From a virus, in IMG/VR virus record IMGVR_UViG_3300042691_008532, positions 1 to 59,665 of that record: DNA of 59,665 nt; one strand, given 5' to 3'. Under the pieces are notes generated by a model, which had not been told where the DNA came from, ran no database searches, and saw only the letters and a program-made list of their open reading frames with translations. Both the position numbers and the translations under genes were made by a program. This document shows positions 1 to 59,644 of the stretch, piece by piece (the stretch's first letter is position 1; every line of letters begins with the position of its first letter).

Positions 1-69
1 AACGTTACAAAAAACAAATTAGATGGCAAAAAAGTACAAGATAGTTGAGATTAAAAAGCCTAAGAATAT
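1..69. repeat. Terminal direct repeat, left copy (circular contig)
   Basis: These 69 bases are identical to the last 69 bases of the window. The most economical explanation is a circularly permuted or circular genome assembled with an overlap. A true short terminal redundancy cannot be excluded. The repeat includes the start of the 70-residue ORF at 23 and the 3' end of the ORF that begins at 59423, so those two genes are neighbours that overlap by 26 bases. Confidence 0.95.
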
Positions 70-235
70 AATCAGAGTAAAAGGATTAAGCAAGTCAGAG
101 GCAGATGACTTGTTTGACAGCCTTACAAGGCTATACCCTAACGTAAAATTGTCGTTAATGAAACACGACGCAGATGACGAAGAGCCTGAGGAAAATTACT
201 TTGATGGACTTGACGACAACGTTGAGTATGAGTAA
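23..235 (+). CDS. Hypothetical acidic-tailed protein, 70 aa
   Basis: Unrecognised small protein with a basic N-terminal third (about residues 2-20, many Lys) and a strongly acidic C-terminal third with many Asp and Glu. In the circular genome its start lies inside the 3' end of the preceding ORF (59423-59644), a 26-base overlap that suggests translational coupling. It is the last gene before the promoter at 243-274. No catalytic motif is visible. The charge pattern could fit a small DNA-mimic or an inhibitor of a host protein, but that is speculation. Confidence 0.7.
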   Translation: MAKKYKIVEIKKPKNIIRVKGLSKSEADDLFDSLTRLYPNVKLSLMKHDADDEEPEENYFDGLDDNVEYE

Positions 236-242
236 AAATAAA

Positions 243-274
243 TTTGGCAATGTCTAAATTTCGTCGTATCTTTG
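243..274 (+). promoter_or_regulatory. Bacteroidota-type promoter for the GAT-II/GGCT gene
   Basis: TTTG at 243-246, a 20-base spacer, then TATCTTTG at 267-274. This matches the Bacteroidota primary-sigma consensus TTTG-N17-23-TAnnTTTG. It is followed by TACA, as in five other promoter-like sites of this genome. The start codon lies 71 bases downstream, after an A-rich leader. Confidence 0.8.
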
Positions 275-344
275 TACAATATTAGTTTAATAACGTGATT
301 CTGTATCTCATTAGGTACTGTCACAATCAAAATCAAATCAAATT

Positions 345-1469: not shown

Positions 1470-1478
1470 TTACAACGG

Positions 1479-1494
1479 GTGTCTTCAAAGACAC
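1479..1494 (+). repeat. 16-base palindrome, copy 1 (hairpin upstream of hammerhead A)
   Basis: GTGTCTTCAAAGACAC, extended to a 9-bp stem (1477-1485 with 1488-1496). It sits 7 bases after the stop codon of the GAT-II/GGCT gene and abuts stem III of the hammerhead. There is no T-tract, so it is probably not a simple terminator. After ribozyme cleavage it would lie close to the new 3' end of the upstream mRNA. Confidence 0.9.
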
Positions 1495-1496
1495 CC

Positions 1497-1547
1497 ACCG
1501 TACTGAGATGTGCGTCTCAGCTGATGATTCTGAAAAGATGAAACGGT
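1497..1547 (+). ncRNA. Type III hammerhead ribozyme A (variant stem II)
   Basis: Stem III ACCGU (1497-1501) pairs with ACGGU (1543-1547). The cleavage site follows A1502. Stem I CTGAGA (1503-1508) pairs with TCTCAG (1515-1520) around loop TGTGCG. The conserved core CTGATGA is at 1521-1527 and GAAA at 1540-1543. Stem II has only three pairs (1529-1531 with 1536-1538) with a GAAA loop, and the normally G-C 10.1/11.1 pair is a U-U mismatch, so activity may be reduced. The loop I sequence resembles that of the satellite tobacco ringspot virus hammerhead as I remember it. The ATG of the next gene is 21 bases beyond the ribozyme. Confidence 0.85.
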
Positions 1548-1568
1548 TAATCAATTAAATCAAATCAA

Positions 1569-1895
1569 ATGAAACAAAGTATTCAATTCAACCACGAGGC
1601 AAACTCATTTACAGAAGCTATTGGAGTTAAGTTATCTCAGCATGAGTTCGCTGAGATTCTTGCAAATATTTCGGGCGAATTTTTTTCTGAAAAATCCGGG
1701 AAAATAAGTCATCTGTCAGAGATGCTGCATTATAAACTTACTTATGAGTGCATTTTATTTTTAGCTACCTGTGAGGTGTATAATAGGATAGCAGAGATAG
1801 TTGAGATTGCGGATGAAAGTGCCCCATCTGTTGGTATGCTTAAAAGAGTTATTGACGCTATCAAAAATCACAAGTCAGACATAAACATGAATTGA
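1569..1895 (+). CDS. Hypothetical protein, 108 aa
   Basis: Unrecognised, mostly helical-looking soluble protein with no cysteine cluster or membrane segment. The start is supported by the AAATCAAATCAAATG leader shared with many genes here and by its fixed distance (21 bases) from hammerhead A. If the ribozyme is active, this mRNA starts with a 5'-OH and a two-hairpin leader. Confidence 0.7.
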   Translation: MKQSIQFNHEANSFTEAIGVKLSQHEFAEILANISGEFFSEKSGKISHLSEMLHYKLTYECILFLATCEVYNRIAEIVEIADESAPSVGMLKRVIDAIKNHKSDINMN

Positions 1896-1958
1896 CATCT
1901 TTTTTATACTTTTTTATTTCAATATTCGTTAAATTGTTAACCCGTAAAATAAAATAAA

Positions 1959-2354
1959 ATGACAATTCAAATCAAAAAAGAGATAGACAGAAGCGTCTTG
2001 GAAGACATATTTGTTACAGCCTTGGAAGGCGGCAGTAATTATTGGTACTACCTGTCTGATGAGGCGTGCAGGAAAATAAGAGAGGCGGTTCCTAAATCAG
2101 AAGACCCGTATCTTAGCACAGCTATTGTTAAAGCTATCTTGGACCACGATGTAGCTGTCCCTGTCAACGATGCAGAGGATGAGGAATTAGTAGTCGGATT
2201 CATAGAGAAGAAGACAATGGCTGATAGATTGCAATTACTATCAGATAGTGAGCACAGTTGGGCATTAGAGGCACAAATTTCGGGAGACGGTGATGCGGAT
2301 AGTGCAGACATCGTGTTCCAATACTTAACAATGGGGGAGGTAGTATATGGCTAA
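1959..2354 (+). CDS. Conserved-looking phage hypothetical protein, 131 aa
   Basis: A soluble, acidic protein. The segment around residues 22-36 (ALEGGSNYWYY then LSD) resembles small proteins I have seen in other phages, but I cannot name a function. The leader is A-rich (AAAATAAAATAAAATG). Its last 8 bases overlap the start of the MazG-like gene, so the two are probably translated together. Confidence 0.7.
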   Translation: MTIQIKKEIDRSVLEDIFVTALEGGSNYWYYLSDEACRKIREAVPKSEDPYLSTAIVKAILDHDVAVPVNDAEDEELVVGFIEKKTMADRLQLLSDSEHSWALEAQISGDGDADSADIVFQYLTMGEVVYG

Positions 2355-2667
2355 GGAAACAAATGCGTATTCGTTCGACAGTTTGATTGAGAACGTAACC
2401 GATTGGGCAGACAACAGGATGCTTCTCAAAAAAGAGAATGCTTCCAAACAGATGCTGAAGGTGATGGAAGAGGTTGGGGAAACGGCCTCAGCCTTGTTGA
2501 AAGGTGACGAGTTAAAATTGATTGACGGCATAGGAGATTCATTCGTTACGTTAATCATCCTGTCAAAGCAACTTGGACTTAATCCATCTGTATGTTTACA
2601 GGTGGCATGGAGCGAGATAAAAAACCGCACCGGCAAAACCGTTGACGGTACATTCATCAAAGATTAA
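2347..2667 (+). CDS. MazG-like nucleotide pyrophosphohydrolase
   Basis: A 106-residue all-alpha protein of the usual single-domain MazG-like size. Helix-1 metal-binding EExxE is seen in VMEEVGETASALLKGD (residues ~39-54). The second acidic helix is DGIGDSFVTL (residues ~59-68). The C-terminal segment EIKNRTGKTVDGTFIKD is typical of phage MazG-like proteins. Family members hydrolyse NTPs to NMP and PPi. Phage versions are proposed to act on abnormal nucleotides or on host stress signals, which I infer only from the family. It overlaps the previous gene by 8 bases and is followed within 10 bases by the next start. Confidence 0.85.
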   Translation: MAKETNAYSFDSLIENVTDWADNRMLLKKENASKQMLKVMEEVGETASALLKGDELKLIDGIGDSFVTLIILSKQLGLNPSVCLQVAWSEIKNRTGKTVDGTFIKD

Positions 2668-2677
2668 AACAATAGTT

Positions 2678-2878
2678 ATGTTTGAAAATGAAGAAACATT
2701 CATCGCAAGGTTGAAGCGGCTGCAGGAGCAGACCGCCATTCTTATTCAGGAGTTGGAGGCAAACCCGCACTTTCCTGATGGCCATATCATAACTAAAGAG
2801 TCTTGGGATAATGCAGACAAGATTACCCATGACGGATTTGTATACGTAAAGTATAATGACCTTTGTTTTTATAAATAA
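2678..2878 (+). CDS. Hypothetical protein, 66 aa
   Basis: Start chosen at MFENEETF because an upstream in-frame ATG at 2642 would overlap the MazG-like gene. The first ~25 residues form a likely amphipathic helix (FIARLKRLQEQTAILIQELE), and the rest looks like a short beta-rich segment with aromatic residues. No family recognised. The -33 box of the next promoter (2862-2865) lies within its last codons. Confidence 0.65.
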   Translation: MFENEETFIARLKRLQEQTAILIQELEANPHFPDGHIITKESWDNADKITHDGFVYVKYNDLCFYK

Positions 2879-2893
2879 ATTGTACTATCTTTG
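2862..2893 (+). promoter_or_regulatory. Bacteroidota-type promoter
   Basis: TTTG at 2862-2865, a 20-base spacer, TATCTTTG at 2886-2893, then TACAGAATTTAA. The downstream sequence is shared with the promoter at 55947-55977. It drives the 86-residue ORF at 2930 and probably the recombination genes that follow. Confidence 0.8.
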
Positions 2894-2929
2894 TACAGAA
2901 TTTAATCAAATCAAATAAAATCAAATCAA

Positions 2930-3190
2930 ATGCAAGAAGCAAAATCAAAATTTTCAGCCTTCTCAGACACGGGAAGATTTATGAGTGCTGTATGTTACGC
3001 AGAGAAAAATCCTGACTCAAAGATAGATGAAGACTGCACAGATGTAGTTCACTACAGTGGCGGATACTTCATTCAACTTATGGACTCAGGAATCTTCAAG
3101 GTGAACGAGTCTTTTAGTAGCCGTTCATTAGACGAAGCAGAGACCTATCTATTTAAGGAGATTATTAATAAAAAAATGAACGATTCTTAA
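2930..3190 (+). CDS. Hypothetical protein, 86 aa
   Basis: Small soluble protein preceded by a good promoter and two copies of the AATCAAATCAAA leader, so it is likely well expressed early. Aromatic residues cluster in the middle (HYSGGYFIQLM). No recognisable motif. Confidence 0.7.
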   Translation: MQEAKSKFSAFSDTGRFMSAVCYAEKNPDSKIDEDCTDVVHYSGGYFIQLMDSGIFKVNESFSSRSLDEAETYLFKEIINKKMNDS

Positions 3191-3200
3191 ACGAATTGCT

Positions 3201-3208
3201 TATATTTG
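3201..3208 (+). promoter_or_regulatory. Possible -7 element
   Basis: TATATTTG fits the TAnnTTTG consensus and lies 21 bases before the ATG at 3230. No TTTG is found at the expected -33 distance, so this is a weak or regulated promoter at best. Confidence 0.4.
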
Positions 3209-3229
3209 CTTCAAAATTCAATCAAAATT

Positions 3230-3532
3230 ATGAAACAGGACGTATTTAATCAGTATGTAGACAGGGTTTGTGAATTGTTTTCGATACCTAAGGATGAGAT
3301 ATTTTCAAAGAATAAAAAGAGAGAGTTAGTTGACGCAAGGTATTTAATCTATTACTTGTGTGCCAAAAGACCAATGAAGAAATCATATATCCAACGGTAC
3401 ATGAGGGAGGCGGGTTACGACATCAAGCACTCGTCTATTATACATGGCATTGCAGAGGTGCAAAAAAGAATCGACCAAGACAAAGACTACGTTTCAGTTG
3501 TAAAAGAGTTGGAGCGTTCGGTGTTTATTTAA
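3230..3532 (+). CDS. Stand-alone DnaA domain IV-like DNA-binding protein
   Basis: A 100-residue protein that resembles only the C-terminal DNA-binding domain of the replication initiator DnaA. It has an N-terminal helix ending in FSIPKDEIFS, then KRELVDARYLIYYLC matching the DnaA helix that carries the R-x-x-A-x-Y-L pattern. The signature motif is KHSSIIHGIAEVQKRI, aligning with DHSTVIHAxxxI. The AAA+ ATPase domain is absent. The start at 3230 is preferred over 3206 because of the AATCAAAATTATG leader. It lies directly before the annealing protein and RecE-like nuclease. It may recruit host replication factors to phage DNA or compete with host DnaA. Candidate targets are the CGACAT repeats near 5.6 and 55 kb, but no DnaA box was assigned. 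Confidence 0.75.
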   Translation: MKQDVFNQYVDRVCELFSIPKDEIFSKNKKRELVDARYLIYYLCAKRPMKKSYIQRYMREAGYDIKHSSIIHGIAEVQKRIDQDKDYVSVVKELERSVFI

Positions 3533-3553
3533 TCAAATCAAAAATCAAATCAA

Positions 3554-4201
3554 ATGGAATCAAAGCAGACCGTATTTGAACGGCTATCGGCCATTAATGT
3601 AAATGACCACGTTGAACAAAAAGACAACCTTAGCTACCTGTCATGGGCATGGGCATGGAGCGAGGTTAAGAAAGCATACCCAAATACAACATATCGTGTA
3701 TTAGAAACAGAGTTTGATGAGGCACTTGGATTTATGTGTCACACTTCTGTTACAATTGAAGGAGAGACCCTTGATATGTGGCTTCCCGTTATGGATAGCA
3801 AGAACAAGGCCATGAAGAAGACAACTTACACTTACCCTACAAAGTATGGTGACAAGACCGTTGAGGCGGCTACGATGTTCGACATCAACAAGACCATCAT
3901 GCGTTGTTTGGTGAAGAACTTGGCGATGTTCGGGCTCGGCATCTACATCTACGCAGGTGAAGACTTACCTGAGGTTGAGGCCAATGCAAAGTCAGCTGCA
4001 GCACCGGTAAAAAAGGAAGAGACGAAAGCCGATGAATTGATTGAGTTGAAAAAAGGAACATCTAATTGGGTTGCAGTAGTAAAGTATGTTATTGCGAACA
4101 AAGAAATGGGCATAGAGAAAATTGGGGCACAGCTTGTGCGTAAGTATAAGATTAGTCCGGCCCTGAAAAAAGAGATTGCTAACTTAATAACTCAAGCGTA
4201 A
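3554..4201 (+). CDS. Single-strand annealing protein (DUF1071/Sak-like)
   Basis: 215 residues. Residues ~10-140 show the DUF1071 pattern: an N-terminal helix, then LSYLSWAWAWSEVKK (~26-40), a long beta-rich section, and a C-terminal helical block with INKTIMRCLVKNLAMFGLG (~115-133). These proteins are grouped with phage ssDNA annealing recombinases of the Rad52/Sak type. A Lys/Ala-rich linker (~148-160) leads to a ~55-residue helical tail. The stop overlaps the start of the next gene in a TAATG arrangement. Pairing with a RecE-like exonuclease implies a RecET-like recombination system for replication intermediates and end repair. Confidence 0.8.
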   Translation: MESKQTVFERLSAINVNDHVEQKDNLSYLSWAWAWSEVKKAYPNTTYRVLETEFDEALGFMCHTSVTIEGETLDMWLPVMDSKNKAMKKTTYTYPTKYGDKTVEAATMFDINKTIMRCLVKNLAMFGLGIYIYAGEDLPEVEANAKSAAAPVKKEETKADELIELKKGTSNWVAVVKYVIANKEMGIEKIGAQLVRKYKISPALKKEIANLITQA

Positions 4202-4959
4202 TGGATAATAAAAAACAAATAGACGGTTCAGACGTGCTGCATCTGCTACGTGACGACAACGAGTATTACAGCGGCATTGGAAAGAACTTTCTGTCAAACT
4301 CTGATATAGGCATCCTTCTGAGTAATCCTCAGGACTTTGGTAAGGAGCGTGAGGACAATAAAAACTTCATGGATGGCAGATACTTCCATCAACTAATTTT
4401 GGAGCCCGAGAAAGCCAAGGAAATGCCCTTTGTGGACGTTTCTACAAGAACGACCAAGGAGTACAAGGTGTTCTGTGAGACAAACAACATTGCGTTTTGT
4501 ATGTTAAAGAAGGAGCAGGATGAGATTCAGCGACTCGTAAGTATCATCAACGGCAACATTGCTTTCTACGATGAGATATACAAAGAAGGTAATCAGTATG
4601 AGGTGCCGGCTATTGGAACGATACAAGGTATGATGTGGAAGGGCAAGGCCGACATCGTTACTGATGAGATGGTAATTGACTTGAAGACAACAAGCGACAT
4701 TCATAAGTTCAAGTGGTCAGCAAAGTCTTACAACTACGACTCTCAATGCTATATCTATCAGGAGTTGTTTGGCAAGCCATTGGTATTTTATGTAATCGAT
4801 AAGACGACAGGTGTGCTCGGCATATTCAGACCGACAGAGGACTTTGTAAAAGGTGGAGAAGCGAAGGTCGGACGTGCTATTGAGGTGTTCAATAAATACT
4901 TCGGTGATAAATCCACAGATGATGTTATTAACTACTACATTGATGAGTATTTAATTTGA
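4201..4959 (+). CDS. RecE/exodeoxyribonuclease VIII-like PD-(D/E)XK nuclease
   Basis: 252 residues. The start region NFLSNSDIGILLSNPQDF and FMDGRYFHQLILEP fit the helical part of Cas4/RecE/RecB-type nucleases, including the metal-ligand His. The core is GMMWKGKADIV (Asp ligand) followed by VIDLKTTSD (D-x-K). It is followed by the SYNYDSQCYIYQ helix with the Q-x3-Y motif of the RecB nuclease family. Known family activity is 5' to 3' resection of dsDNA. It is translationally coupled (TAATG) to the annealing protein upstream, which supports a two-component recombination function. Confidence 0.85.
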   Translation: MDNKKQIDGSDVLHLLRDDNEYYSGIGKNFLSNSDIGILLSNPQDFGKEREDNKNFMDGRYFHQLILEPEKAKEMPFVDVSTRTTKEYKVFCETNNIAFCMLKKEQDEIQRLVSIINGNIAFYDEIYKEGNQYEVPAIGTIQGMMWKGKADIVTDEMVIDLKTTSDIHKFKWSAKSYNYDSQCYIYQELFGKPLVFYVIDKTTGVLGIFRPTEDFVKGGEAKVGRAIEVFNKYFGDKSTDDVINYYIDEYLI

Positions 4960-4980
4960 TAGAATGTAGTTCTAAAATAT

Positions 4981-5044
4981 TGCAGCCTGTTATTATTAAT
5001 CTAAAAAAAATGTTTTGGTTAGTAACAAACGAAGGCAGGCTGCA
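4981..5044 (+). repeat. 9-bp inverted repeat just 5' of the tRNA-like gene
   Basis: TGCAGCCTG (4981-4989) is the exact reverse complement of CAGGCTGCA (5036-5044), with 46 bases between. It ends three bases before the tRNA-like gene, so in RNA it could present the tRNA 5' end to processing enzymes. It is not a terminator, because no T-run follows. Confidence 0.6.
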
Positions 5045-5047
5045 TAT

Positions 5048-5152
5048 GGTCAGGTGGCGGAATGGGTAGACGCTAAACCATTTAGAGATAAGATGTAGAT
5101 TCTTGGTGAGGTAATATACTACATCATACAGGTTCGATTCCTGTCCTGACCA
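5048..5152 (+). tRNA. Atypical tRNA-like gene (Leu-type arms, anticodon unassigned)
   Basis: The acceptor stem GGTCAGG (5048-5054) pairs perfectly with CCTGACC (5145-5151), followed by A. The D-arm GCG...CGC with GAATGGGTAGA matches Leu-type D-arms. The T-arm ACAGG-TTCGATT-CCTGT is canonical. Total length is 105 bases, about 20 more than a normal tRNA-Leu, and no 5-bp anticodon stem with a 7-base loop and T33 can be drawn. AACCA...TGGTG would enclose a 23-base loop containing TTTAGAG. A 7-bp helix GATGTAG/CTACATC (5092-5098 with 5119-5125) crosses this region. Options are an interrupted tRNA-Leu, a long variable arm with a degenerate anticodon arm, or a tRNA mimic. Confidence 0.65.
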
Positions 5153-5158
5153 CACTAA

Positions 5159-5193
5159 GCAATCAACTTAGCCTTAGAGGTTGATGCTTTTTT
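5159..5193 (+). terminator. Intrinsic terminator after the tRNA-like gene
   Basis: GC(A)ATCAAC pairs with GTTGATGC around a 12-base loop, followed by six T (5188-5193). It is placed seven bases after the tRNA-like gene. Confidence 0.75.
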
Positions 5194-5229
5194 AAAACAG
5201 ACTAAGGCAAAACAAAAAAAACAGTTATT

Positions 5230-5514
5230 ATGTCACAAGCAGAAAAAGTCTTTGCTGACGGCTTCTCATTTAAAAGAAATGAGAAAGCACCGGAATTTGT
5301 TATCGGTAGATTATCTCTAAAGGTAGATGATGCCATCGCATTCATGCGAGAGAACGAGAAGAACGGTTGGGTAAACCTCAACATCAAGACCGCAAGAAGT
5401 GGGAACCATTATGTCGAACTCGACAATTACGACCCTGTAAAAAATGACTCGAAGAGTCAGAAACCAAAACAGAAAGAGGCTAAAGCCTCAGAAGATGACG
5501 GTTTCATGTTCTAA
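5230..5514 (+). CDS. Small SSB-like protein with acidic C-terminal tail
   Basis: 94 residues. Residues 1-65 form a compact beta/alpha domain (FADGFSFKR, PEFVIGRLSLKV, GWVNLNIKTA, GNHYVELDNY) that I associate with small phage proteins in replication loci. The C-terminal ~30 residues are a Lys/Gln-rich linker ending in EDDGFMF. This is the acidic tail plus terminal aromatic typical of bacterial and phage ssDNA-binding proteins, which recruit partner enzymes. It lies between the recombination pair and the primase-helicase and is closed by a terminator. The SSB function is inferred from context and tail, not from a clear OB-fold match. Confidence 0.6.
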   Translation: MSQAEKVFADGFSFKRNEKAPEFVIGRLSLKVDDAIAFMRENEKNGWVNLNIKTARSGNHYVELDNYDPVKNDSKSQKPKQKEAKASEDDGFMF

Positions 5515-5520
5515 AAAATC

Positions 5521-5545
5521 GGGGGAGTTTATACTTCCCCTTTTT
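5521..5545 (+). terminator. Intrinsic terminator
   Basis: GGGGGAG pairs with CTTCCCC around loop TTTATA, followed by five T (5541-5545). It separates the SSB-like gene from the AT-rich region before the primase-helicase. Confidence 0.85.
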
Positions 5546-5711
5546 AAACTTGTCAATAATGCTAATATATTTTTTCCTATTCTCTCTATATATATATTCC
5601 CTATTCTTCTTTTTTTATTATTTATAATTAAAGAAAAAAAACGACATTATTGACACTATTGCTGATAGTCAAATAGTTATATTTATTTAACCGACATTAA
5701 ACCGACATTGA
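5546..5711. other. AT-rich region with CGACAT repeats; candidate origin or regulatory region 1
   Basis: A non-coding, very AT-rich stretch with a short TATATATA tract, pyrimidine runs and three CGACATT(A/T/G)-like sites at 5642, 5692 and 5703. The last two are 11 bp apart, one helical turn. An imperfect inverted repeat ACTAT-TGCTG-ATAGT lies at about 5656-5670. The order pyrimidine/TA tract then CGACAT sites closely resembles the region at 54.9-55.2 kb. It directly precedes the primase-helicase, a usual position for phage origins. Confidence 0.5.
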
Positions 5712-8135
5712 ATGAATCATAATGTGACGATATTCCAAAATATCAGGGAAACCGACACACCTTTCTTCCGTGATGTTCACGTAATCCTTGAGCGTATCAA
5801 GGATGGCGCAGCATCTACAAAGGAATTGGTTAAAAAGATACGATTAGAAAAACGTAAACCTGAACGACAGGAGTTAAAGAAGCAGCTGCCTGCTATATGT
5901 TTCAGTGGAACTTTTAACAAGAGGACTGATTCGTCTCTTATAGAACATTCGGGCCTTATTTGCTTGGATTTTGATGGGTATGCCAAGCAGAAAGAGTTGT
6001 TGCAAGACAAAGAGAGCCTATCAAAAAACAAATATGTTTTTTCGGTGTTCATATCGCCATCAGGTAATGGACTGAAAGTATTGGTTAAGATACCTGCGGA
6101 TGCAGAAAACCATACTCTATACTTTAACAGCTTGGATAAGTATTTCAACAGCCCTTACTTTGACAAGACGAGCAAGAACCTTAGCCGGGTTTGCTATGAA
6201 TCATATGACCCGCTACTATTCATCAATGAGAACTCATCTGTTTGGGACATTATCGAAGAACCTGAGTATACAGAGGTCAGCAAGATAAGAGACAAGGCTA
6301 CTATACCCATTACAGACGAGAATAAGATTGTTGAGATACTTGTAAAATGGTGGGAGAAGAAGTATCCTATGGTGGAAGGACAGCGTAATCAGAATGCATA
6401 CGTCCTTGCCATGGCATTCAATGACTTTGGTATTAACAAGAGCCTTGCATCCTATGTACTAAATCAGTTTGCGACAGATGACTTTAACCTGAGAGAGATT
6501 GGAACAACCATCGACTCGGCCTATCGCCACACGGCAAACTTCGGAACGAAATACTACGAGGATGAAGAGCGTATCAATTCAATCAAAGCAAAGCTGAGAC
6601 GAGGCGTATCAAAGAAAGAGATTCGCATTCAGCTGCAGGATTCAAACTTAGACAACGAAACTATCGAGTCGGTGCTGAATAAAGTTGAGGAGGAGAATGC
6701 TTCGCAAACTTTTTGGGATAGAAACGACAGGGGTGTCATAAAGATAGTGCACATACATTTCAAACAGTTCTTGGAAGACAATGGATTCTACAAGTATTGT
6801 CCTGAGGGTGGAAAGAATTACATATTCGTGAAGGTTACAAACAACCTGATTGACCACACCTCGGACAAAGAGATTAAAGACTTTGTGCTTGCACACTTAT
6901 TAGAGTTGGATGACATCGCAGTCTACAACTACTTTGCAGACAACACAAGATTCTTTGATGAGAAGTTCTTATCACTTCTGTCAACGATTGAGATTTACTT
7001 TATTGCAGACAGCAAGGATGCATCGTACCTGTACTATAAAAACTGTGCAGTTAAGATTACAAAGGATGGCATCTCAACGCTCGACTACTTGGACTTGGGT
7101 GGGTATGTTTGGAAAGACCATGTGATAGACAGGAACTTTACGATGTGTGACGTGACAGGCAACTGTGACTTTAAAAAGTTCGTGAGCAACATCAACGGAG
7201 GTGACATCAACCGAATCAAATCAATGGAGAGCACGATAGGATTCCTATTGCACGGCTACAAAAATCTTTCCTTCTGTCCTGCTGTGATACTCAATGACGA
7301 GGTTATAAGCGACAACCCTGAGGGCGGTACAGGTAAGGGATTACTGATGAATGCACTGAGTAAGATGAAGAAGTTGGTGGTAATAGATGGTAAGTCATTC
7401 ACGTTCGAGAGAAGTTTTGCTTATCAGTTGGTCTCAGCAGATACACAAATACTTTGCTTTGATGACGTGAAGAAACACTTTGATTTTGAGAGACTGTTCA
7501 GTGTTGTAACAGAGGGCTTGACACTTGAGAAGAAGAACAAGGATGCGATTAAGATTCCGTTCAGCCGTTCGCCAAAGATTACGATTACAACAAACTATGC
7601 AATAAAAGGTGCCGGTAATTCATTTGCAAGAAGGAAATGGGAGTTAGAGTTGCATCAGTATTATACAAAGGACTTTACACCACTCGATGAATTTGGAAAG
7701 TTAATGTTTGGCGATTGGAACGATGACGATTGGTGCGAGTTTGACAACTATATGATTGGATGCCTGATGAACTACTTGAAGACAGGACTTGTTAAATCAA
7801 AGTTTGTTAATTTGAAGATACGCCAACTGTCAGCAGAGACCTGCCATGAGTTTATCGAATGGTGTGGACTTGTAGATAATACAGATAGGAACGTAATGCT
7901 TCAACCTAATACAAGACTATATAAGAATGAATTATATTCTAACTTTATTGACGAGTATCCTGACTACGGGCCAAGGGGTAGGATGAGTATAAGTCGTACT
8001 AAGTTTTATAAGTGGCTTATATCTTATGCTATCTACAAGGAAGGAACAATGCCACAGGAAGACAGAGACCAACAGGGACGTTGGATAATTATCAAGAGTA
8101 AAAAAGATGAGGGATTAGAAGAAGCGCCATTCTAA
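5712..8135 (+). CDS. Primase-helicase (BT4734/VirE-N-like primase domain plus SF3/D5-type helicase)
   Basis: 807 residues. The N-terminal ~170 residues resemble the BT4734/VirE N-terminal domain family: SGLICLDFDGY (80-90) and VFSVFISPSGNGLKVLVKI (109-127), carrying acidic residues expected of a primase-polymerase-like active site. A PriCT-like helical segment follows around 210-260. The C-terminal ATPase has Walker A NPEGGTGKG (~534-542), Walker B QILCFDDV (~578-585) and SF3 motif C KITITTNYAIKG (~621-632). This gives primer synthesis and fork unwinding in one chain. With no phage DNA polymerase visible, it probably loads a host replisome. It sits immediately downstream of origin-like region 1. 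Confidence 0.85.
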   Translation: MNHNVTIFQNIRETDTPFFRDVHVILERIKDGAASTKELVKKIRLEKRKPERQELKKQLPAICFSGTFNKRTDSSLIEHSGLICLDFDGYAKQKELLQDKESLSKNKYVFSVFISPSGNGLKVLVKIPADAENHTLYFNSLDKYFNSPYFDKTSKNLSRVCYESYDPLLFINENSSVWDIIEEPEYTEVSKIRDKATIPITDENKIVEILVKWWEKKYPMVEGQRNQNAYVLAMAFNDFGINKSLASYVLNQFATDDFNLREIGTTIDSAYRHTANFGTKYYEDEERINSIKAKLRRGVSKKEIRIQLQDSNLDNETIESVLNKVEEENASQTFWDRNDRGVIKIVHIHFKQFLEDNGFYKYCPEGGKNYIFVKVTNNLIDHTSDKEIKDFVLAHLLELDDIAVYNYFADNTRFFDEKFLSLLSTIEIYFIADSKDASYLYYKNCAVKITKDGISTLDYLDLGGYVWKDHVIDRNFTMCDVTGNCDFKKFVSNINGGDINRIKSMESTIGFLLHGYKNLSFCPAVILNDEVISDNPEGGTGKGLLMNALSKMKKLVVIDGKSFTFERSFAYQLVSADTQILCFDDVKKHFDFERLFSVVTEGLTLEKKNKDAIKIPFSRSPKITITTNYAIKGAGNSFARRKWELELHQYYTKDFTPLDEFGKLMFGDWNDDDWCEFDNYMIGCLMNYLKTGLVKSKFVNLKIRQLSAETCHEFIEWCGLVDNTDRNVMLQPNTRLYKNELYSNFIDEYPDYGPRGRMSISRTKFYKWLISYAIYKEGTMPQEDRDQQGRWIIIKSKKDEGLEEAPF

Positions 8136-8145
8136 AAAATAAAAA

Positions 8146-8478
8146 ATGACAAACAAACAAATCGTTCATATAAGCATGGTTAACTCTTTTAACCTGATAA
8201 CAGAGCGCAACACGTTAGAAGAGATTCAAGAGTCAAACATAACATTATTCGCTCATTCTCCTGAGGATGACATTACATATGAAACTTTAAAGATGATTAT
8301 AGATTACTTTGAATCAATAGAGATGTATGAATATTGTTCTGATTTGATAGAGTATCTCAATCTGAATTTTAAAGAAAACGGTACAAGAATTGGAAGCTGT
8401 GAATGTAAATACCCTGTCATAAAAAGGTACAGCAGGAAAGTGTCCTGCGATTTCTGTAATAAAAGATTATTCTTATGA
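8146..8478 (+). CDS. Hypothetical protein with C-terminal zinc-binding-like cysteines, 110 aa
   Basis: The first ~80 residues are acidic and helical. The last ~25 residues hold CECKYP followed by CDFCNKR, four cysteines in two pairs that would fit a small zinc finger. Its stop overlaps the SF2 helicase start by four bases (ATGA), so it may be a cofactor of that helicase. No named family recognised. Confidence 0.7.
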   Translation: MTNKQIVHISMVNSFNLITERNTLEEIQESNITLFAHSPEDDITYETLKMIIDYFESIEMYEYCSDLIEYLNLNFKENGTRIGSCECKYPVIKRYSRKVSCDFCNKRLFL

Positions 8479-9947
8479 TTGAAAGAAAGTTAGGGCATAC
8501 AAACAAAGAGATGTTACAATACTGTGAAAGAATAAAAAAGATTGTATTATCTAAGACAAAAGTAAAAGTCGGGAAAGGTAAAAATATTGAGTATTGTGAT
8601 ATGTTAAAGTATAAGACTGACGAATCAATTATAAATAATATTATTGAGAGTCATAATTACTACAAAAAACTATACGAAGAAGAAATGAAAGCAGCAGATG
8701 CTCTTACTAATGGAGTCATTCAGTATAGAGATTATCAGAAAGACATCATCAAGGAAGGCGCAAAGATTATCGGTGAGCATGGCTTCTTATATCTTGCGAT
8801 GGAGGTGCGTACCGGTAAGACGCTCACAAGTCTTGGCATTGCTGCGACGATAAAGAGCAACCGTGTGCTGTTCGTTACAAAGAAGAAAGCTATATCAAGC
8901 ATCGAAGCGGACTACGAGAAACTTAATCCTCCATTCGCATTGACGGTCATCAACTACGAGAGCCTTCACTTGGTAATGGATAACGAGAGGTGGGACTTAA
9001 TTATTTGTGATGAAGCACACAGCATGGGCGCATTCCCTAAACCGAGTGGAAGGGCTGAGTTGGTTGCAGAGGTGATAAGAAAGTACAGGCCACGAGTAAT
9101 ACTGTTATCAGGTACACCAACACCGGAGTCGTACTCGCAGATGTATCATCAGGTGTATGCGATACCAAACAATCCGTTCAGGGAGTTCAAAAACTTCTAC
9201 AGGTTTTGCGATAAGTATGTAAACGTAAAACAGCGCAAGATAAACGGCCTGATGGTCAACGATTATAGCAGAGGGCACGACAGTATCCTGAAGCAGATGG
9301 AGCCATTCACGATTAACTATACGCAACAGGAGGCAGGGTTTGTAGCTGAGACAAAGGAAGAAATACTTGAGGTGGAGATGAAAGAATCAACCTATAAGTT
9401 GATTAAAAGACTCAAGAGCGATTTGGTTATTGAAGGAAAAGAGGAGACCATCTTGGCTGACACACCGGTTAAACTAATGATGAAGGTGCATCAACTTTGC
9501 AGCGGAACAATAAAGTTTGAGAGTGGCAACTCAATGATATTGGACTTAAGCAAGGCCGAGTTTATAAAGAGTCGCTTTGCAGGATGCAAGATTGGTATCT
9601 TCTACAAATTCAAAGAAGAATACAATGCACTCAAGCAGGTGTTTGGTGATGAATTAACATCTGATTTAAGTGTCTTTGAAGACACGGACAAAAACATTGC
9701 GCTGCAGATTGTATCGGGTCGTGAAGGTATCAGCTTAAAGCAGGCAGACTATTTGGTGTACTACAACATAGACTTCAGCGCCACGAGTTATTGGCAGAGC
9801 AAGGACCGGATGACAACAAAGGAGCGTCTTGAGAATCAGGTATATTGGATTTTCTCAAAGGGAGGTATCGAGAAGGACATCTACAAGGCTGTCACGAAGA
9901 AGAAAGATTACACAATCAATCATTTTAAAAAAGATTTTTATGAGTAA
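8475..9947 (+). CDS. SF2 (SNF2/DEAH-type) helicase
   Basis: 490 residues with the SF2 motif set: Q-like YRDYQKDII (~77-85), Walker A MEVRTGKT (~109-116), motif Ia-like VLFVTKKKA, motif II CDEAHS (~178-183), motif III SGTPTP (~212-217), motif V-like IVSGREGISLKQAD, and motif VI YWQSKDRM, which has Lys-Asp-Arg in place of the usual QxxGRxxR. The architecture matches phage SNF2-like helicases often placed near VRR-NUC nucleases, as here. It likely remodels replication or recombination intermediates. Palindrome copy 2 lies in its coding sequence at 9670-9685. Confidence 0.85.
   Translation: MIERKLGHTNKEMLQYCERIKKIVLSKTKVKVGKGKNIEYCDMLKYKTDESIINNIIESHNYYKKLYEEEMKAADALTNGVIQYRDYQKDIIKEGAKIIGEHGFLYLAMEVRTGKTLTSLGIAATIKSNRVLFVTKKKAISSIEADYEKLNPPFALTVINYESLHLVMDNERWDLIICDEAHSMGAFPKPSGRAELVAEVIRKYRPRVILLSGTPTPESYSQMYHQVYAIPNNPFREFKNFYRFCDKYVNVKQRKINGLMVNDYSRGHDSILKQMEPFTINYTQQEAGFVAETKEEILEVEMKESTYKLIKRLKSDLVIEGKEETILADTPVKLMMKVHQLCSGTIKFESGNSMILDLSKAEFIKSRFAGCKIGIFYKFKEEYNALKQVFGDELTSDLSVFEDTDKNIALQIVSGREGISLKQADYLVYYNIDFSATSYWQSKDRMTTKERLENQVYWIFSKGGIEKDIYKAVTKKKDYTINHFKKDFYE
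9670..9685 (+). repeat. 16-base palindrome, copy 2 (inside the SF2 helicase gene)
   Basis: GTGTCTTTGAAGACAC. It is the only asymmetric copy whose centre (TTTGAA) is in the opposite orientation to transcription. It encodes part of SVFEDTD, so the reading frame differs from the copies at 16782 and 50983. Confidence 0.9.
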
Positions 9948-31541: not shown

Positions 31542-31574
31542 AAAAAAAGGAGAGTGTCTTTGAAGACACCCTCC
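31542..31574 (-). terminator. MCP terminator built on the 16-base palindrome (copy 4)
   Basis: On the minus strand GGAGGGTGTCTT pairs with AAGACACTCTCC (12 bp, one G-T) around CA, followed by seven T. The core at 31554-31569 is GTGTCTTCAAAGACAC, identical to the hairpins in front of hammerheads A and B. This is the one copy with a proper T-tract, showing that the palindrome can be used as a 3'-end hairpin. Confidence 0.9.
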
Positions 31575-55946: not shown

Positions 55947-55977
55947 TTTGTTTGCAAAAAGAATTAAACTATATTTG
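55947..55977 (+). promoter_or_regulatory. Bacteroidota-type promoter for the amidoligase operon
   Basis: TTTG at 55947-55950, a 19-base spacer, TATATTTG at 55970-55977, then TACAGAATTTAAA, matching the downstream sequence of the promoter at 2862-2893. It is probably the main early promoter of this segment. Confidence 0.85.
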
Positions 55978-56017: not shown

Positions 56018-56650
56018 ATGAGTAATCTACTTGCAATTGAGTCAAACTTTTTAAACCTTGCCGAAATTAAGCAAGCGTTAAACCTGACTGAAATCAGGAC
56101 GGTAAGCCGCAATCTTAGCAATGCTAAGAAAAAGAAATTTGAACAGTCTTTAGTCTTATCCAAACTTGTTGTGAAGGCCGTTGAGTGGTTTCACTCAGAA
56201 GAGGGCAAAGCAAAGTGTGCAGAAGAGGGCATTGAGTGGAGCAATGAGGAAATCGGGAACAAAGTATTCGGGTGGCAAAAGTCGTATTTCTACAAAGTAG
56301 TAAAAGCAGGCAAGTTGCCTGAAACAACCGTTGAAACCTTTGTTGCAAAGTGCAATGAAATTGAGGCACAAGGCGAAGAGGCAAACCGTTCCATTGAAGG
56401 TTTATTGAAATTTGCGAAGCAGGTGGAAAGCGCACAAAGCGAAGGTGGACAAGATAGCGAAGATAGCGAAGCAGCGGAAAGCGCACAAGTTGAAACAAGG
56501 GTACAAACCGTTTTTACCATGACTTACAAAACCGATGCAGGTAACGTGTCCGTTCGTGTGGATGCAAACGGCAATGTAAAAACCACTAACACAAGCGAAC
56601 AAATTCAGGCCGCAATTAATTTTCTTACTAACACTTTAAATAAAATCTAA
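56018..56650 (+). CDS. Hypothetical protein, possible DNA-binding regulator, 210 aa
   Basis: The N-terminal ~110 residues are helical and include IEWSNEEIGNKVFGWQKSYF then YKVVKAGKL, compatible with a helix-turn-helix of the type in which 'IG...G.S...Y' spans the turn and recognition helix. An acidic, Ser/Gln/Glu-rich linker (~135-160) leads to a small beta domain (QTVFTMTYKTDAGNVSVRVD). First gene after the promoter; its stop and the amidoligase start overlap as TAATG, so the two are expressed together. The regulator idea is tentative. Confidence 0.65.
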   Translation: MSNLLAIESNFLNLAEIKQALNLTEIRTVSRNLSNAKKKKFEQSLVLSKLVVKAVEWFHSEEGKAKCAEEGIEWSNEEIGNKVFGWQKSYFYKVVKAGKLPETTVETFVAKCNEIEAQGEEANRSIEGLLKFAKQVESAQSEGGQDSEDSEAAESAQVETRVQTVFTMTYKTDAGNVSVRVDANGNVKTTNTSEQIQAAINFLTNTLNKI

Positions 56651-57561
56651 TGAGCACAAGTACACAGGGCATAGTATATGGGATGCATGGATACGGTTTA
56701 AACCGTTACGGTCGCAGAGTCTCAAGGGGTGCAATACAGGGTTACCATGACAAGCCGCACCCGTTATTTCTCAATAAAACAGCTTTTAGGGCTGACATTG
56801 AAGGGCTTAAAAAAGTAACGCAGAAGGCGGCAATAAAAATCGACGGGAGCGAGTTTACATCTCGTTTCACTATCGGCATGGAGGTTGAAAAAAACCAATT
56901 GCACAGGGGCGCTGTGAGAGAGTATGAGTTATTATGCGGTTTTGAGCGTGACGGGTCATGCGGCTATGAGGCTGTCACCCATATCCTGCCTTTGCTCCCA
57001 TCGGGCAAATGGAGGACGAAGGTTTACGATATGATGCACAAAGCTGAGCGTATAATTGATGACCGTTTCAGCCCGTCAGATAAGCGTTGTGGCGGCCATA
57101 TTACGGTTGGTGTTGATGGTATGACAGGCTCACAATTGAGAGACCTTATAAGGGTTAATGCAGGTATACTGTATGCAATGTTCCGCAATCGGTTAAAAAA
57201 CGGCTATTGCTGCTACAACAGCCGTATGCAGGATGCACAAAGCTGTGCTAATTGGCACAGTAAATATCAGGTTTCACTTGCAAAAGACTATTGCTTAGAG
57301 TTTCGCTTGCCTTCACGCTTTGAGAGTGTAAAACAGATGATGAGACGCTATGAGTTGATGTATGAATTAGTAAATTTTAGCGTGAACAAGCCAAACGGCA
57401 AGTATGAAGACTTTCTTAAAATTATCCGTCCCATTATTGTATCAATGTATAACGGGGATGTAACGAAGGCAGAAGAAATTTTATCCCTTTCTAAAGAGTT
57501 CAGGACGTATATTTTGAAAGGAACAATAACAGATGCTATACGGCCTTATTTATACCTGTAG
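56650..57561 (+). CDS. Amidoligase_2-like (COOH-NH2 ligase, glutamine-synthetase fold) enzyme
   Basis: 303 residues. Motifs of the Amidoligase_2 type: FTIGMEVEKN (GxExE, 76-80), ERDGSCGYEAVTHILPL (Asp101, Glu107), CGGHITVG (147-154, the C/G-x-H-x-H/T-V block) and CLEFRLPSR (215-223, the E-x-R end motif). Together these form the metal/ATP and substrate site of glutamine-synthetase-like ligases, which join a carboxylate to an amine using ATP. Comparative work on this family links it to GAT-II and GGCT-like domains, both found here in one protein (345-1469). The substrate is unknown: protein, peptidoglycan, polyamine or modified base. It is translationally coupled to the upstream gene and is followed by a hairpin and hammerhead B. 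Confidence 0.8.
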   Translation: MSTSTQGIVYGMHGYGLNRYGRRVSRGAIQGYHDKPHPLFLNKTAFRADIEGLKKVTQKAAIKIDGSEFTSRFTIGMEVEKNQLHRGAVREYELLCGFERDGSCGYEAVTHILPLLPSGKWRTKVYDMMHKAERIIDDRFSPSDKRCGGHITVGVDGMTGSQLRDLIRVNAGILYAMFRNRLKNGYCCYNSRMQDAQSCANWHSKYQVSLAKDYCLEFRLPSRFESVKQMMRRYELMYELVNFSVNKPNGKYEDFLKIIRPIIVSMYNGDVTKAEEILSLSKEFRTYILKGTITDAIRPYLYL

Positions 57562-57574
57562 TTGAGCAAACGGG

Positions 57575-57590
57575 GTGTCTTCAAAGACAC
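57575..57590 (+). repeat. 16-base palindrome, copy 8 (hairpin upstream of hammerhead B)
   Basis: GTGTCTTCAAAGACAC, extended to a 10-bp stem by GGG/TCC with one G-T pair (57572-57593). It starts 10 bases after the amidoligase stop and abuts stem III of the hammerhead. Confidence 0.9.
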
Positions 57591-57593
57591 TCC

Positions 57594-57644
57594 GCTGTCT
57601 CAGGGTGTGTGCCCTGACTGATGAGTTCAAAAGAACGAAACAGC
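57594..57644 (+). ncRNA. Type III hammerhead ribozyme B (canonical)
   Basis: Stem III GCTGT (57594-57598) with ACAGC (57640-57644). Cleavage is expected after C57599 (a GUC site). Stem I TCAGGG/CCCTGA (57600-57605 with 57612-57617), loop TGTGTG. Core CTGATGA 57618-57624. Stem II GTTC/GAAC (57625-57628 with 57633-57636), loop AAAA. GAAA 57637-57640. All conserved positions fit, and the whole strongly resembles the satellite tobacco ringspot virus ribozyme in layout. The ATG of the next small gene is 22 bases beyond. Confidence 0.95.
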
Positions 57645-57666
57645 AAACTAATAAAATCAAATTAAA

Positions 57667-57771
57667 ATGGGACAGTACATTTCTATTTTCGAGGTAGTTG
57701 CCATATCGGTAATTGCTATCTTTTGTTACGTTTTTATCAAAGCCATTATTAAACTATTTAAATCAAATTAA
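57667..57771 (+). CDS. Small single-pass membrane protein, 34 aa
   Basis: ATG at 57667, TAA at 57769-57771. Sequence character: a short polar start, a hydrophobic helix (VVAISVIAIFCYVFIKAII, ~10-28) and a basic end (KLFKSN), giving N-out/C-in orientation. It is the gene immediately behind hammerhead B and has the AAATCAAATTAAAATG leader. It stops two bases before the next start. It could be a small inner-membrane effector. Confidence 0.6.
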   Translation: MGQYISIFEVVAISVIAIFCYVFIKAIIKLFKSN

Positions 57772-57772
57772 C

Positions 57773-58333
57773 ATGAGACAGGTGACCTTAAATGTTTTAA
57801 CGGCCTTTTTATCAGGCCGCACATTAAAAGCAGGCAACACAAAAACAGATGGCCAAAGCGTTTGGTTGCATGGCAACAAAATTATTGAGCGAAGGGATGA
57901 CGGTATATGGATAACCAATGCAGGGTGGAATAGTGCAACCACTAAGGAGAGGTTAAACGGGTTGCAGGGCGTAAATATAAGGCAGAGAAACGGTGTTTGG
58001 TTTCTGAATGGTATACCATGGAACGGAGATTGGGTGAATGTTAGAGACTATGAGCAGGGCTCACAATATGTTGCAGAGACAGTAAGCTATGAGCATGAGT
58101 TTGATGTTACGAGCGAGTGGATGAATGCGGGATACAGTAGGCCAACCTATTTTGTGTTTCACACGTTGGTGGAAAGTGAGAGAGAGGCGGTGGAAAAGCT
58201 GCTGAGAGACCATGGAATCGAGAGTAAGCGGATGGAATCAGACACTGATGGTGTATACCGTCCTAACTATTTTGTAATCGTTCATCCTGACAAACATAAA
58301 GAGGCGTTAGATATTCTTAACAATCAAAATTAA
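57773..58333 (+). CDS. Conserved-type phage hypothetical protein, 186 aa
   Basis: Start at MRQVTLNVLTAFLSGRTLKA (57773) rather than 57713, which would overlap the membrane-protein gene. The N-terminal ~85 residues carry a motif widespread in phages: NTKTDGQSVWLHGNKIIER, WITNAGWNSATTKERLNGL and WFLNGIPWNGDWVNV. The C-terminal half has RPTYFVFHTLVESEREAVEK and RPNYFVIVHPDKHKEALDIL, an internal pseudo-repeat with R-P-x-Y-F-V. Function unknown. Confidence 0.7.
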   Translation: MRQVTLNVLTAFLSGRTLKAGNTKTDGQSVWLHGNKIIERRDDGIWITNAGWNSATTKERLNGLQGVNIRQRNGVWFLNGIPWNGDWVNVRDYEQGSQYVAETVSYEHEFDVTSEWMNAGYSRPTYFVFHTLVESEREAVEKLLRDHGIESKRMESDTDGVYRPNYFVIVHPDKHKEALDILNNQN

Positions 58334-58338
58334 ATAAC

Positions 58339-58566
58339 ATGAATCAGAACGTTAAAGTTGTGGGTGGTATCGTCTACCTGCTTGTTACAGAGAAAGCAAA
58401 AGAGGTATTCCAAAGTGGACTGTTTGATGTGTACAAGTTGCACAATGATAATTCGGAGAGTTTATGCGAGTCGTATGCAGACATAAACGATGCGTTGGAG
58501 GTCGGCCTTGACCTTGGTATTGAGGTTGATTTGCTTAACGACATAGTGAAAGCGCTTATTGGTTAA
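58339..58566 (+). CDS. Hypothetical protein, 75 aa
   Basis: Starts with a beta strand (VKVVGGIVYLLVTEKA) then an acidic helical half (DINDALEVGLDLGIEVDLLN). Five bases after the previous stop. This type of short protein occurs near the WITNAGW-type protein in other phages, in my recollection. No function known. Confidence 0.65.
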   Translation: MNQNVKVVGGIVYLLVTEKAKEVFQSGLFDVYKLHNDNSESLCESYADINDALEVGLDLGIEVDLLNDIVKALIG

Positions 58567-58582
58567 TCGTTCAATGTGGGCG

Positions 58583-58598
58583 GTGTCTTTAAAGACAC
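58583..58598 (+). repeat. 16-base palindrome, copy 9 (symmetric; upstream of hammerhead C)
   Basis: GTGTCTTTAAAGACAC, a perfect palindrome. The stem extends outward as GCG/TGC (58580-58582 with 58599-58601), which uses bases that also belong to stem III of hammerhead C, so the two folds compete. Confidence 0.9.
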
Positions 58599-58651
58599 TG
58601 CTGTCCTAAGATGAGTATCTTAGCTGATGAGTTCAAAAGAACGAAACAGTA
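58599..58651 (+). ncRNA. Type III hammerhead ribozyme C
   Basis: Stem III TGCTGT (58599-58604) with ACAGTA (58646-58651, one G-T pair). Cleavage is expected after C58605 (GUC). Stem I CTAAGA/TCTTAG (58606-58611 with 58618-58623), loop TGAGTA. Core CTGATGA 58624-58630. Stem II GTTC/GAAC with loop AAAA (58631-58642). GAAA 58643-58646. Stems I differ in sequence from copies A and B but keep pairing, which is covariation within one genome. Start codon 20 bases beyond. Confidence 0.95.
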
Positions 58652-58671
58652 ACCCACTAAAAATTAAAAAC

Positions 58672-59091
58672 ATGACAGACCTGTTTGACAAAATCGAATC
58701 GCTACCTGAAAAAGTACAGACTATCCTTAACGAATTTGCGTTAAAGGATAACAGTTACAGCAACTGTGCAGAGTTGCTAAGGCTAATGGAGGCGGAGGGT
58801 TATACGTTTGAGTATGGCCTTGACGCTGTGCCTTATGGCCTTGTACGAAAAGTAAAGGTCGAGGTTTATGGACACGACATATTTGTTGCTTGTCCGCATT
58901 GCAACAACTCAGAAGAGCAATCAGGTGACGAGCAGAGGCATCACCTGCAAGTGTTTGAGATAACGGAGTGGCGTGAAGATGTGGAGGGACAGAACGAGTT
59001 GTCGGAGATGAGATGCTGCTGTTGTGGTGGCGAGTTCCTGCTTGAGTGGGACTATGAGAATGTGCAGGAGTGCGAGGAAGATGGCGAGTAA
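58672..59091 (+). CDS. Hypothetical protein with zinc-ribbon-like cysteines, 139 aa
   Basis: Start at MTDLFDKIESLPEKVQTILN (58672); the in-frame start at 58627 lies inside hammerhead C and is rejected. The N-terminal ~60 residues are helical. A beta domain follows with CPHCNN (~79-84) and, after ~35 residues, RCCCCGGEFLLEW, a CxxC...CCCC arrangement compatible with a zinc ribbon. Acidic end. I recall similar proteins in phages with unknown function. Confidence 0.7.
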   Translation: MTDLFDKIESLPEKVQTILNEFALKDNSYSNCAELLRLMEAEGYTFEYGLDAVPYGLVRKVKVEVYGHDIFVACPHCNNSEEQSGDEQRHHLQVFEITEWREDVEGQNELSEMRCCCCGGEFLLEWDYENVQECEEDGE

Positions 59092-59141
59092 CCGGTATGA
59101 GTGCGGCCCCGGGTGAATCAACCCGGGGGGCAAGTGACCGG
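59092..59141 (+). ncRNA. Strong structured RNA element between genes
   Basis: CCGGT (59092-59096) pairs with ACCGG (59137-59141); inside it TGC pairs with GCA, and CCCCGGGT pairs with ACCCGGGG around loop GAATCA. Internal loops are ATGAG/AGTG and GG/G. It starts directly after the stop codon of the zinc-ribbon-like gene and occupies the same intergenic slot as the hammerhead modules. A short AT-rich run follows, so a terminator is possible. It does not fit the hammerhead, twister or HDV core as far as I can tell. Confidence 0.6.
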
Positions 59142-59171
59142 CAAATTTTATAACAATCAAAATCAAATCAA

Positions 59172-59426
59172 ATGACGACTAAAATTTGGCTTAGAGGAGG
59201 TTATAAAAACTTAAAACCAACAGATACGGTTAATACTTGGAAGGCCGTCGAATCGTTTACTGTTAGTAACAATTTAAGACCATGCCTTATTAAGCAGCAA
59301 GGAGGTTATTATAAAATAGAGAAAGACGGAGTCTTAACCTTTGTAACTGAGACGCTATACTCAATAACGTTTGAAGAGTTATACAGAAAACTTAAAGACC
59401 ATAACAATCAAAATCAAATCAAATGA
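59172..59426 (+). CDS. Hypothetical protein, 84 aa
   Basis: Basic N-terminal half (TTKIWLRGGYKNLKPTDTVN), beta-rich core (YYKIEKDGVLTFVTETLYSI) and a helical tail ending in NQNQIK, which is the translated AATCAAAATCAAATCAAA leader of the next gene. It overlaps that gene by four bases (ATGA). Family unknown. Confidence 0.65.
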   Translation: MTTKIWLRGGYKNLKPTDTVNTWKAVESFTVSNNLRPCLIKQQGGYYKIEKDGVLTFVTETLYSITFEELYRKLKDHNNQNQIK

Positions 59427-59644
59427 CACAAGAACAAATGAAAATTGAAATCGAAAGAAAAGAAACGGTACAGGATGTAATTGACCGCTTGCTTTACCTT
59501 CCTGCTGATAAACTTGCAAAGTATAAGCACTTCCTTGACACGTTGGTTGAACTATACCCTATTGACGTGAGGGTGGTGGATGGCGTAAGGATTTATAACG
59601 TTACAAAAAACAAATTAGATGGCAAAAAAGTACAAGATAGTTGA
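59423..59644 (+). CDS. Hypothetical protein, 73 aa
   Basis: A helical N-terminal half (MTQEQMKIEIERKETVQDVI) and RLLYLPADKLAKYKHFLDTL, then a beta hairpin. The C-terminal codons lie in the terminal repeat, so in the circle its end overlaps the 70-residue gene at 23-235. Function unknown. Confidence 0.65.
   Translation: MTQEQMKIEIERKETVQDVIDRLLYLPADKLAKYKHFLDTLVELYPIDVRVVDGVRIYNVTKNKLDGKKVQDS

Follow-up and report, generated by a model that had tools for sequence, protein, structure and literature searches.

Type III hammerhead ribozymes as probable cut points between early genes in a clade of tailed phages

Background

What hammerhead ribozymes do in phages has been an open question ever since they were first found, and a 2017 review still described the role of hammerheads in prokaryotes in the same terms. 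Perreault et al. (2011) describe clustered hammerheads that flank genes or short gene blocks in phages and prophages, and propose that they process transcripts (PMC3088659). According to the same source, some phage-type hammerheads cleave in vitro and in E. coli, and the U10.1-U11.1 mismatch occurs in nature and is the best tolerated one (PMC3088659). The haloviruses HF1 and HF2 have a hammerhead (HHphage) 13 nt before an early gene, with a mapped 5' end near the cut (PMC3088659). The preliminary description of the present DNA took a repeated hairpin-ribozyme-leader cassette acting as a series of intercistronic cutters to be undescribed; as an idea, a series of intercistronic ribozyme cutters is already contained in the 2011 paper (PMC3088659).

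The DNA analysed here, referred to as the window, is the whole of IMG/VR record IMGVR_UViG_3300042691_008532 (59,665 nt). Its sequence and that of its relatives suggest, with a probability of about 80%, that type III hammerheads serve as fixed cut points which punctuate the polycistronic RNA made early by a clade of tailed phages.

Results and discussion

The record is circular, with a 69-bp overlap shared by both ends, and because of this all three hairpin-hammerhead modules of the window fall into one early operon region on the plus strand (56018..59596/1..9947). Bacteroidota-type promoter-like sites lie ahead of the operon with modules 1 and 2 (55947..55977, plus strand; TTTG..TANNTTTG) and ahead of the gene upstream of module 3 (243..274, plus strand). 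Both are weak pattern matches, the pattern being found 8 times in the window against 4.25 expected, and the same pattern has no match inside the three hammerhead junctions.

Module 1 follows an amidoligase-like gene (56650..57561, plus strand) that has 48 related loci. By sequence the name is weakly supported, with phrog_2443 at E 0.03-0.08 (0.077 for the window protein) and Pfam PF12224 at E 0.14, so that assignment via Pfam failed; it is based on PHROGs, motifs and a glutamine-synthetase-like fold, for which the top PDB match has E 1.1e-4. The module opens with a hairpin at 57572..57593, GGGGUGUCU-UCAA-AGACACUCC, which contains the palindrome GTGTCTTCAAAGACAC at 57575-57590. A 10-bp hairpin had been reported here; it does lie directly upstream of the ribozyme, but has 9 bp and a UCAA loop, and reaches 10 bp only if C57571-G57594 is counted, a pair that competes with stem III. 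The hammerhead itself, at 57594..57644 as originally proposed, has stem III GCUGU/ACAGC, a 7-bp stem I, CUGAUGA at 57618-57624, and stem II GUUC-AAAA-GAAC followed by GAAA. Its core has the G10.1-C11.1 pair and a GUC triplet, and cleavage is predicted after H17, C57599. An A/T-rich leader (57645..57666) then gives the 22 nt to ATG 57667 that had been noted, which opens a hydrophobic 34-aa ORF without family match (57667..57771); a longer ORF with a Kyano_Gp96 domain (PF23790) follows at 57773..58333.

The two further modules that had been described have the same order, all on the plus strand. Module 2 (58583-58651) consists of the hairpin GTGTCTTTAAAGACAC (58583..58598) and a hammerhead at 58599..58651 with G10.1-C11.1 and a predicted cut after C58605; its A/T-rich leader (58652..58671) leaves 20 nt to ATG 58672. 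Module 3 (1477-1547) lies behind a GAT2-GGCT fusion gene (345..1469; PF06094 E 3.2e-21, PF13522 E 8e-4, phrog_2520). It has the hairpin GGGUGUCU-UCAA-AGACACCC (1477..1496), a hammerhead at 1497..1547 that is non-canonical in its U10.1.U11.1 mismatch and GUA triplet, with a predicted cut after A1502, and an A/T-rich leader (1548..1568) of 21 nt to ATG 1569. Elsewhere in the window, at 59092-59141, a stop codon is followed directly by a strong hairpin whose internal loop is asymmetric; this element was rejected as a further conserved cassette, its internal-loop pattern being found only in the window among related loci.

The preliminary description had looked to a covariance search for support, and this turned out mixed with the general family model. 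RF00008 detected module 1 at 43.5 bits (E 3.3e-6) and module 2 at 28.3 bits, both below its gathering score of 48.5, and missed module 3, so that an Rfam search of the window at gathering level has zero matches. The clade's own model, R1, gives modules 1, 2 and 3 scores of 80.9, 74.2 and 67.5 bits, and was built from an alignment of 101 sequences that includes the three window copies. In 60 dinucleotide shuffles of the window one match of such quality was found, against three in the window, all on the plus strand.

An exact hairpin-plus-core pattern identified 65 stretches in IMG/VR viral contigs, and a ribozyme-blind search with the amidoligase-like protein identified 48 loci; together they yield 146 different hammerheads of type III. 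Run against the genomes of 84,980 prokaryote species, the exact pattern has a single match, which lies inside coding DNA and is not a hammerhead, and prokaryote genomes were rejected as a source. One to five copies, clustered on one strand, occur in 40 of 42 related IMG/VR records, a fraction biased upward by the choice of most records through the hairpin-ribozyme pattern. Among named records, the terminase is most similar in MW202828 (77%), the Flavobacterium elemo phages (45%), Maribacter phage Panino and Cellulophaga phages, and the hosts of this tailed-phage clade are therefore probably Bacteroidota.

Conservation of the cassette and its core in related phages, which had been named as a test of the proposal, is extensive. 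The CUGANGA ... GAAA core and a NUH triplet (GUC, GUA, GUU or AUC) are present in all three window copies and in the 101 aligned distinct ribozymes, in which the core is invariant or nearly so. Across these 101, 96.4% of pairs are standard, and two-sided changes number 459 against 128 in shuffles and affect 13 of 16 pairs. The covariation score is 0.738 (0.249 shuffled; at most 0.124 for slid partners), and the helices are 94, 99.9 and 93% paired. All three stems covary and stem III is open, as in type III hammerheads; stem I is fixed at 7-8 bp, loop II is A-rich across the family, and the loop sequences UGWGUG and RAAA, candidates for a tertiary contact between loops I and II, are conserved. 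Genomes hold up to five hammerheads, which share one orientation among the genes of the operon, as in the multi-hammerhead operons of Perreault et al. (PMC3088659). On these sequence grounds the window modules are type III hammerhead ribozymes, predicted to cleave themselves. That they are inactive relics which merely resemble hammerheads might be thought from the Rfam gathering score, unmet by all window copies, and from core mismatches in some copies, but such an origin is scarcely credible, as 101 different sequences retain CUGANGA and GAAA and each of the three stems shows compensatory changes.

Some hammerheads of unusual form were also seen. A copy at the GGCT junction of locus L077, near position 14476, reads CCGATGA where CUGATGA is usual; this U4C change also occurs in a viroid hammerhead. 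In the cultured Cellulophaga phage phi19:3 (KC821608, 21782-21828, minus strand), a weak R1 match of 20.6 bits at a gene boundary was rejected as type III and reads as a type I hammerhead, UAGAUUAA-CUGACGAG...CGAAA-UGCUGUGAAGCA-UC-UUAAUCUA.

The placement of the 146 hammerheads is regular on both sides, with an ORF stop upstream of 142 of them, mostly within 70 nt, and an ATG downstream, mostly after 17-28 nt. The upstream gene is amidoligase-like in 52 of the 146 and GAT2-GGCT in 39, and at 37 of 47 gene-anchored loci a hammerhead is found within 200 nt of the amidoligase-like stop. A core-only scan added at least seven further phages with the amidoligase-like gene, at 44-83% identity to known copies (five at 44-56%); among the matches listed, seven of seven such phages have the hammerhead 30-55 nt past the stop of this gene. 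Upstream genes in the pattern-found set amount to 8.5 effective families and downstream genes to 37.8, and because downstream genes are so much more varied, the module is tied to the 3' end of the upstream gene and not to the downstream leader.

This bears on the possibility that the ribozyme mainly serves the gene that follows, by giving it a structured 5'-OH leader that would set mRNA stability or translation. The near-constant spacing to the ATG agrees with this, as does the hammerhead 13 nt before an early gene in elemo phages, where no gene precedes it, and in HF1/HF2 (PMC3088659). All 68 elemo phage records have one hammerhead region, with an identity of at least 99%. In elemoA (NC_055852) it lies at 19140-19082 on the minus strand (R1 41.5 bits, RF00008 36.3), 13 nt ahead of gp62. 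It is part of the 5' leader of the first early gene, and neither a gene nor an abutting hairpin directly precedes it. Hammerheads are therefore not used solely for processing behind a gene, and the elemo copy could serve the downstream mRNA. For the present clade, in which the conserved neighbour is the end of the upstream gene together with its hairpin while downstream genes vary far more, a leader device is unlikely as the main role. A structured leader of about 170 nt also separates a promoter-like site from the elemoA hammerhead (19312-19141, minus strand); leader and ribozyme together have a fold z-score of -2.2 and no Rfam match.

The preferred reading, punctuation of the polycistronic RNA, starts from the order of the cassette: gene end, hairpin, ribozyme, short A/T-rich leader and next start codon. 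Self-cleavage after position 17 in the cell would let the upstream mRNA end in the hairpin and some 6 nt more, with a 2',3'-cyclic phosphate at the 3' terminus. The downstream mRNA would start with a 5'-OH and retain stems I and II as a folded leader that stops about 20 nt short of its start codon, and stability or translation may be affected. The main conserved target is the 3' end of the amidoligase-like gene and of GAT2-GGCT, which probably act in one pathway, and the cut may uncouple these two genes from the variable small genes behind. The cassette had been put forward as a cutter of early polycistronic RNA. It is repeated, conserved and most likely does cut, but its arrangement follows the upstream 3' end and not the downstream leader (8.5 versus 37.8 families).

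A hairpin of at least 8 bp abuts stem III (offset 0) in 64% of the 146 relatives, compared with 0.7% at matched sites that follow other genes and 0.4% at randomly chosen ones, and the distance from its end to the cut is 5-7 nt in most copies. Hairpins other than the GTGTC/GACAC type occur in 28 copies, among them some with GAAA-, UUCG- and UCAA-type loops, and other lineages repeat hairpins of their own, such as GTGTC-N6-GACAC in L173 and L192 and GTGAGGGTTCAAACCCTCAC, found three times in L235. Since so many different hairpin sequences occur at stem III, the hairpin is retained while its sequence changes between lineages. Its function as an intrinsic terminator was rejected, as it abuts stem III and has no U tract at ribozymes. 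MW202828, the closest named relative by terminase, has the hairpins and lacks the hammerhead, and so hairpins can occur at these junctions without a ribozyme. There, the palindrome hairpin GTGTCGTTAACGACAC is seen behind the amidoligase-like and GAT2-GGCT genes.

The usual module hairpin is one copy of a 16-bp palindrome, GTGTCTTYRAAGACAC. Of 29 clade records, 27 hold 7-16 copies of it per genome, one holds a single copy and one holds none; its reversed sequence is found 0 times. In the window the palindrome is found at 1479, 9670, 16782, 31554, 50983, 55799, 57575 and 58583, and at 38647 with one mismatch; the copy at 31554, on the minus strand, does have a U tract. Copies are found in ribozyme cassettes, between genes and inside genes. 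In an apparent groEL gene the palindrome stands at the same codons. The palindrome is probably the site of a phage protein, and because it recurs, also inside genes, protection of 3' ends is not the only possible role of the hairpin.

The number of palindromes and the multiple ribozyme copies would also agree with an origin of hairpin and ribozyme from an element, selfish or forming RNA circles, that has multiplied within the genome. However, the ribozyme stems differ between copies of one genome, the genes between copies are not repeats, so that the repeated unit of retrozymes and viroid-like elements is lacking, and the junctions are orthologous across distant phages. Palindromes and ribozymes also occur without each other (genomes G036/G038 and G040), and a selfish element is highly improbable.

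The junctions offer a separate line of evidence for punctuation by cutting. Behind the amidoligase-like gene, 76 usable junctions hold a hammerhead in 67 cases, a tRNA-like element with acceptor stem and T arm in eight (L079, L084, L099, L103, L104, L108, L111 and L113), and a hairpin only in MW202828; at other ORF ends the frequencies are 1.2% for hammerheads and 0.9% for tRNA-like elements. Three of the eight tRNA-like elements were judged by eye, and the Fisher p value is 1.5e-7 with script calls alone and 1.8e-15 with these three included. The L078 call is a frame break and was left out. Five loci called as lacking a hammerhead by the strict script were filter losses that do hold variant hammerheads, with a weaker stem III in L093 and L095 and a variant stem II in L027, L028 and L065. 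On the protein tree the tRNA-like state represents four changes, at least two of them forced by well supported branches. Behind GAT2-GGCT (n = 71) there are 45 hammerheads and, by reading, five tRNA-like elements; about one third of these junctions have neither, several having a hairpin only and others nothing.

Minimal tRNA-like elements are plausible substrates of RNase P or RNase Z. The hammerhead and the tRNA-like element, two unrelated RNAs, are interchangeable at one junction and would have in common only that they are cut, the former by itself and the latter plausibly by RNase P or Z. That an orthologous junction almost always has a cleavable RNA, whether ribozyme or tRNA-like, is comparative evidence for selected cutting, and since two unrelated cleavable RNAs interchange, this exchange is the best evidence and argues that endonucleolytic cutting is the selected function.

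Similar elements are found between genes in L079, L084, L093, L099, L101, L103, L104, L108, L111, L113 and others, often beside a palindrome hairpin. Many have no proper anticodon arm, and some consist of an acceptor stem and T arm alone. The window has a tRNA-like element at 5048-5152, which scores 38.5 bits as tRNA in Rfam and was missed by ARAGORN.

The 10.1-11.1 pair divides the 146 hammerheads into classes: G-C in 100, U.U in 36, A.A in 9 and G.U in one. G-C predominates behind the amidoligase-like gene (46/52), and U.U or A.A behind GAT2-GGCT (30/39). The A.A class has no mention in the accessible part of Perreault et al. 2011 (PMC3088659). U.U and A.A copies would be expected to cut more slowly. 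On the GGCT tree, where 20 of 38 junction relatives are U.U, core classes are maintained along branches whose length suffices for every stem to be rewritten, and this persistence over deep divergence suggests that the weakened core at this junction is kept by selection. H17 is linked to the class (A with U.U, C with G-C, U with A.A); the linkage was rejected as an independent signal, as on the GGCT tree it follows clades with few changes, and shared descent therefore explains much of it.

The retained U.U or A.A core, as if partial cutting were selected, might also point to regulated switches under ligand, ion or translation control, with the abutting hairpin competing with stem III. Hairpin flanks pair with stem III no more often than in the control, though, and the fixed stem lengths leave no space for an aptamer domain; regulation of this kind is very unlikely. 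Within the punctuation reading, a more specific scheme is possible and is offered tentatively. One orthologous early-operon junction would keep its cut point and swap its cutter, either a hammerhead or a minimal tRNA-like element as putative RNase P/Z substrate, often with a hairpin marking the new 3' end. Rates would be specific to the junction, with the canonical core behind the amidoligase-like gene and U.U or A.A behind GAT2-GGCT. The conserved U.U and A.A cores are natural material on how weakened hammerheads work and on rate tuning per gene, and the cultured Flavobacterium elemo phages, with one copy each, make a direct test possible.

Comparison with known systems

The modules resemble the sTRSV-type III hammerhead of RF00008 in their core, open stem III and short stem II with a 4-nt loop, and loop I UGWGUG resembles that of sTRSV. 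They differ from it in the fixed 7-8 bp of stem I, the A-rich loop II, the conserved U.U and A.A classes and the score below gathering level.

The phage hammerheads of Perreault et al. have no constant gene identities, and an abutting hairpin is unmentioned in the accessible part of that paper (PMC3088659), whereas the present clade has a fixed junction (amidoligase-like, GAT2-GGCT), a hairpin at stem III and replacement by a tRNA-like element. The HHphage of HF1/HF2 likewise lies shortly before an early gene (13 nt), but belongs to archaeal viruses and has a variant core and a single copy (PMC3088659). The concept of processing by ribozymes is not new; the hairpin cassette, the fixed junction and the tRNA-like replacement are new here, in that no earlier report was found in the openly licensed literature, which is not proof of novelty.

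Two other systems divide polycistronic RNA in a comparable manner. In the early operon of phage T7, RNase III cut points between cistrons leave hairpin 3' ends; those sites are cut by a host protein enzyme, whereas here the RNA would cut itself. In mitochondria, tRNA elements between genes punctuate polycistronic RNA as processing signals, whereas in the present clade the tRNA-like elements are minimal or degenerate, and one orthologous phage junction has either such an element or a ribozyme.
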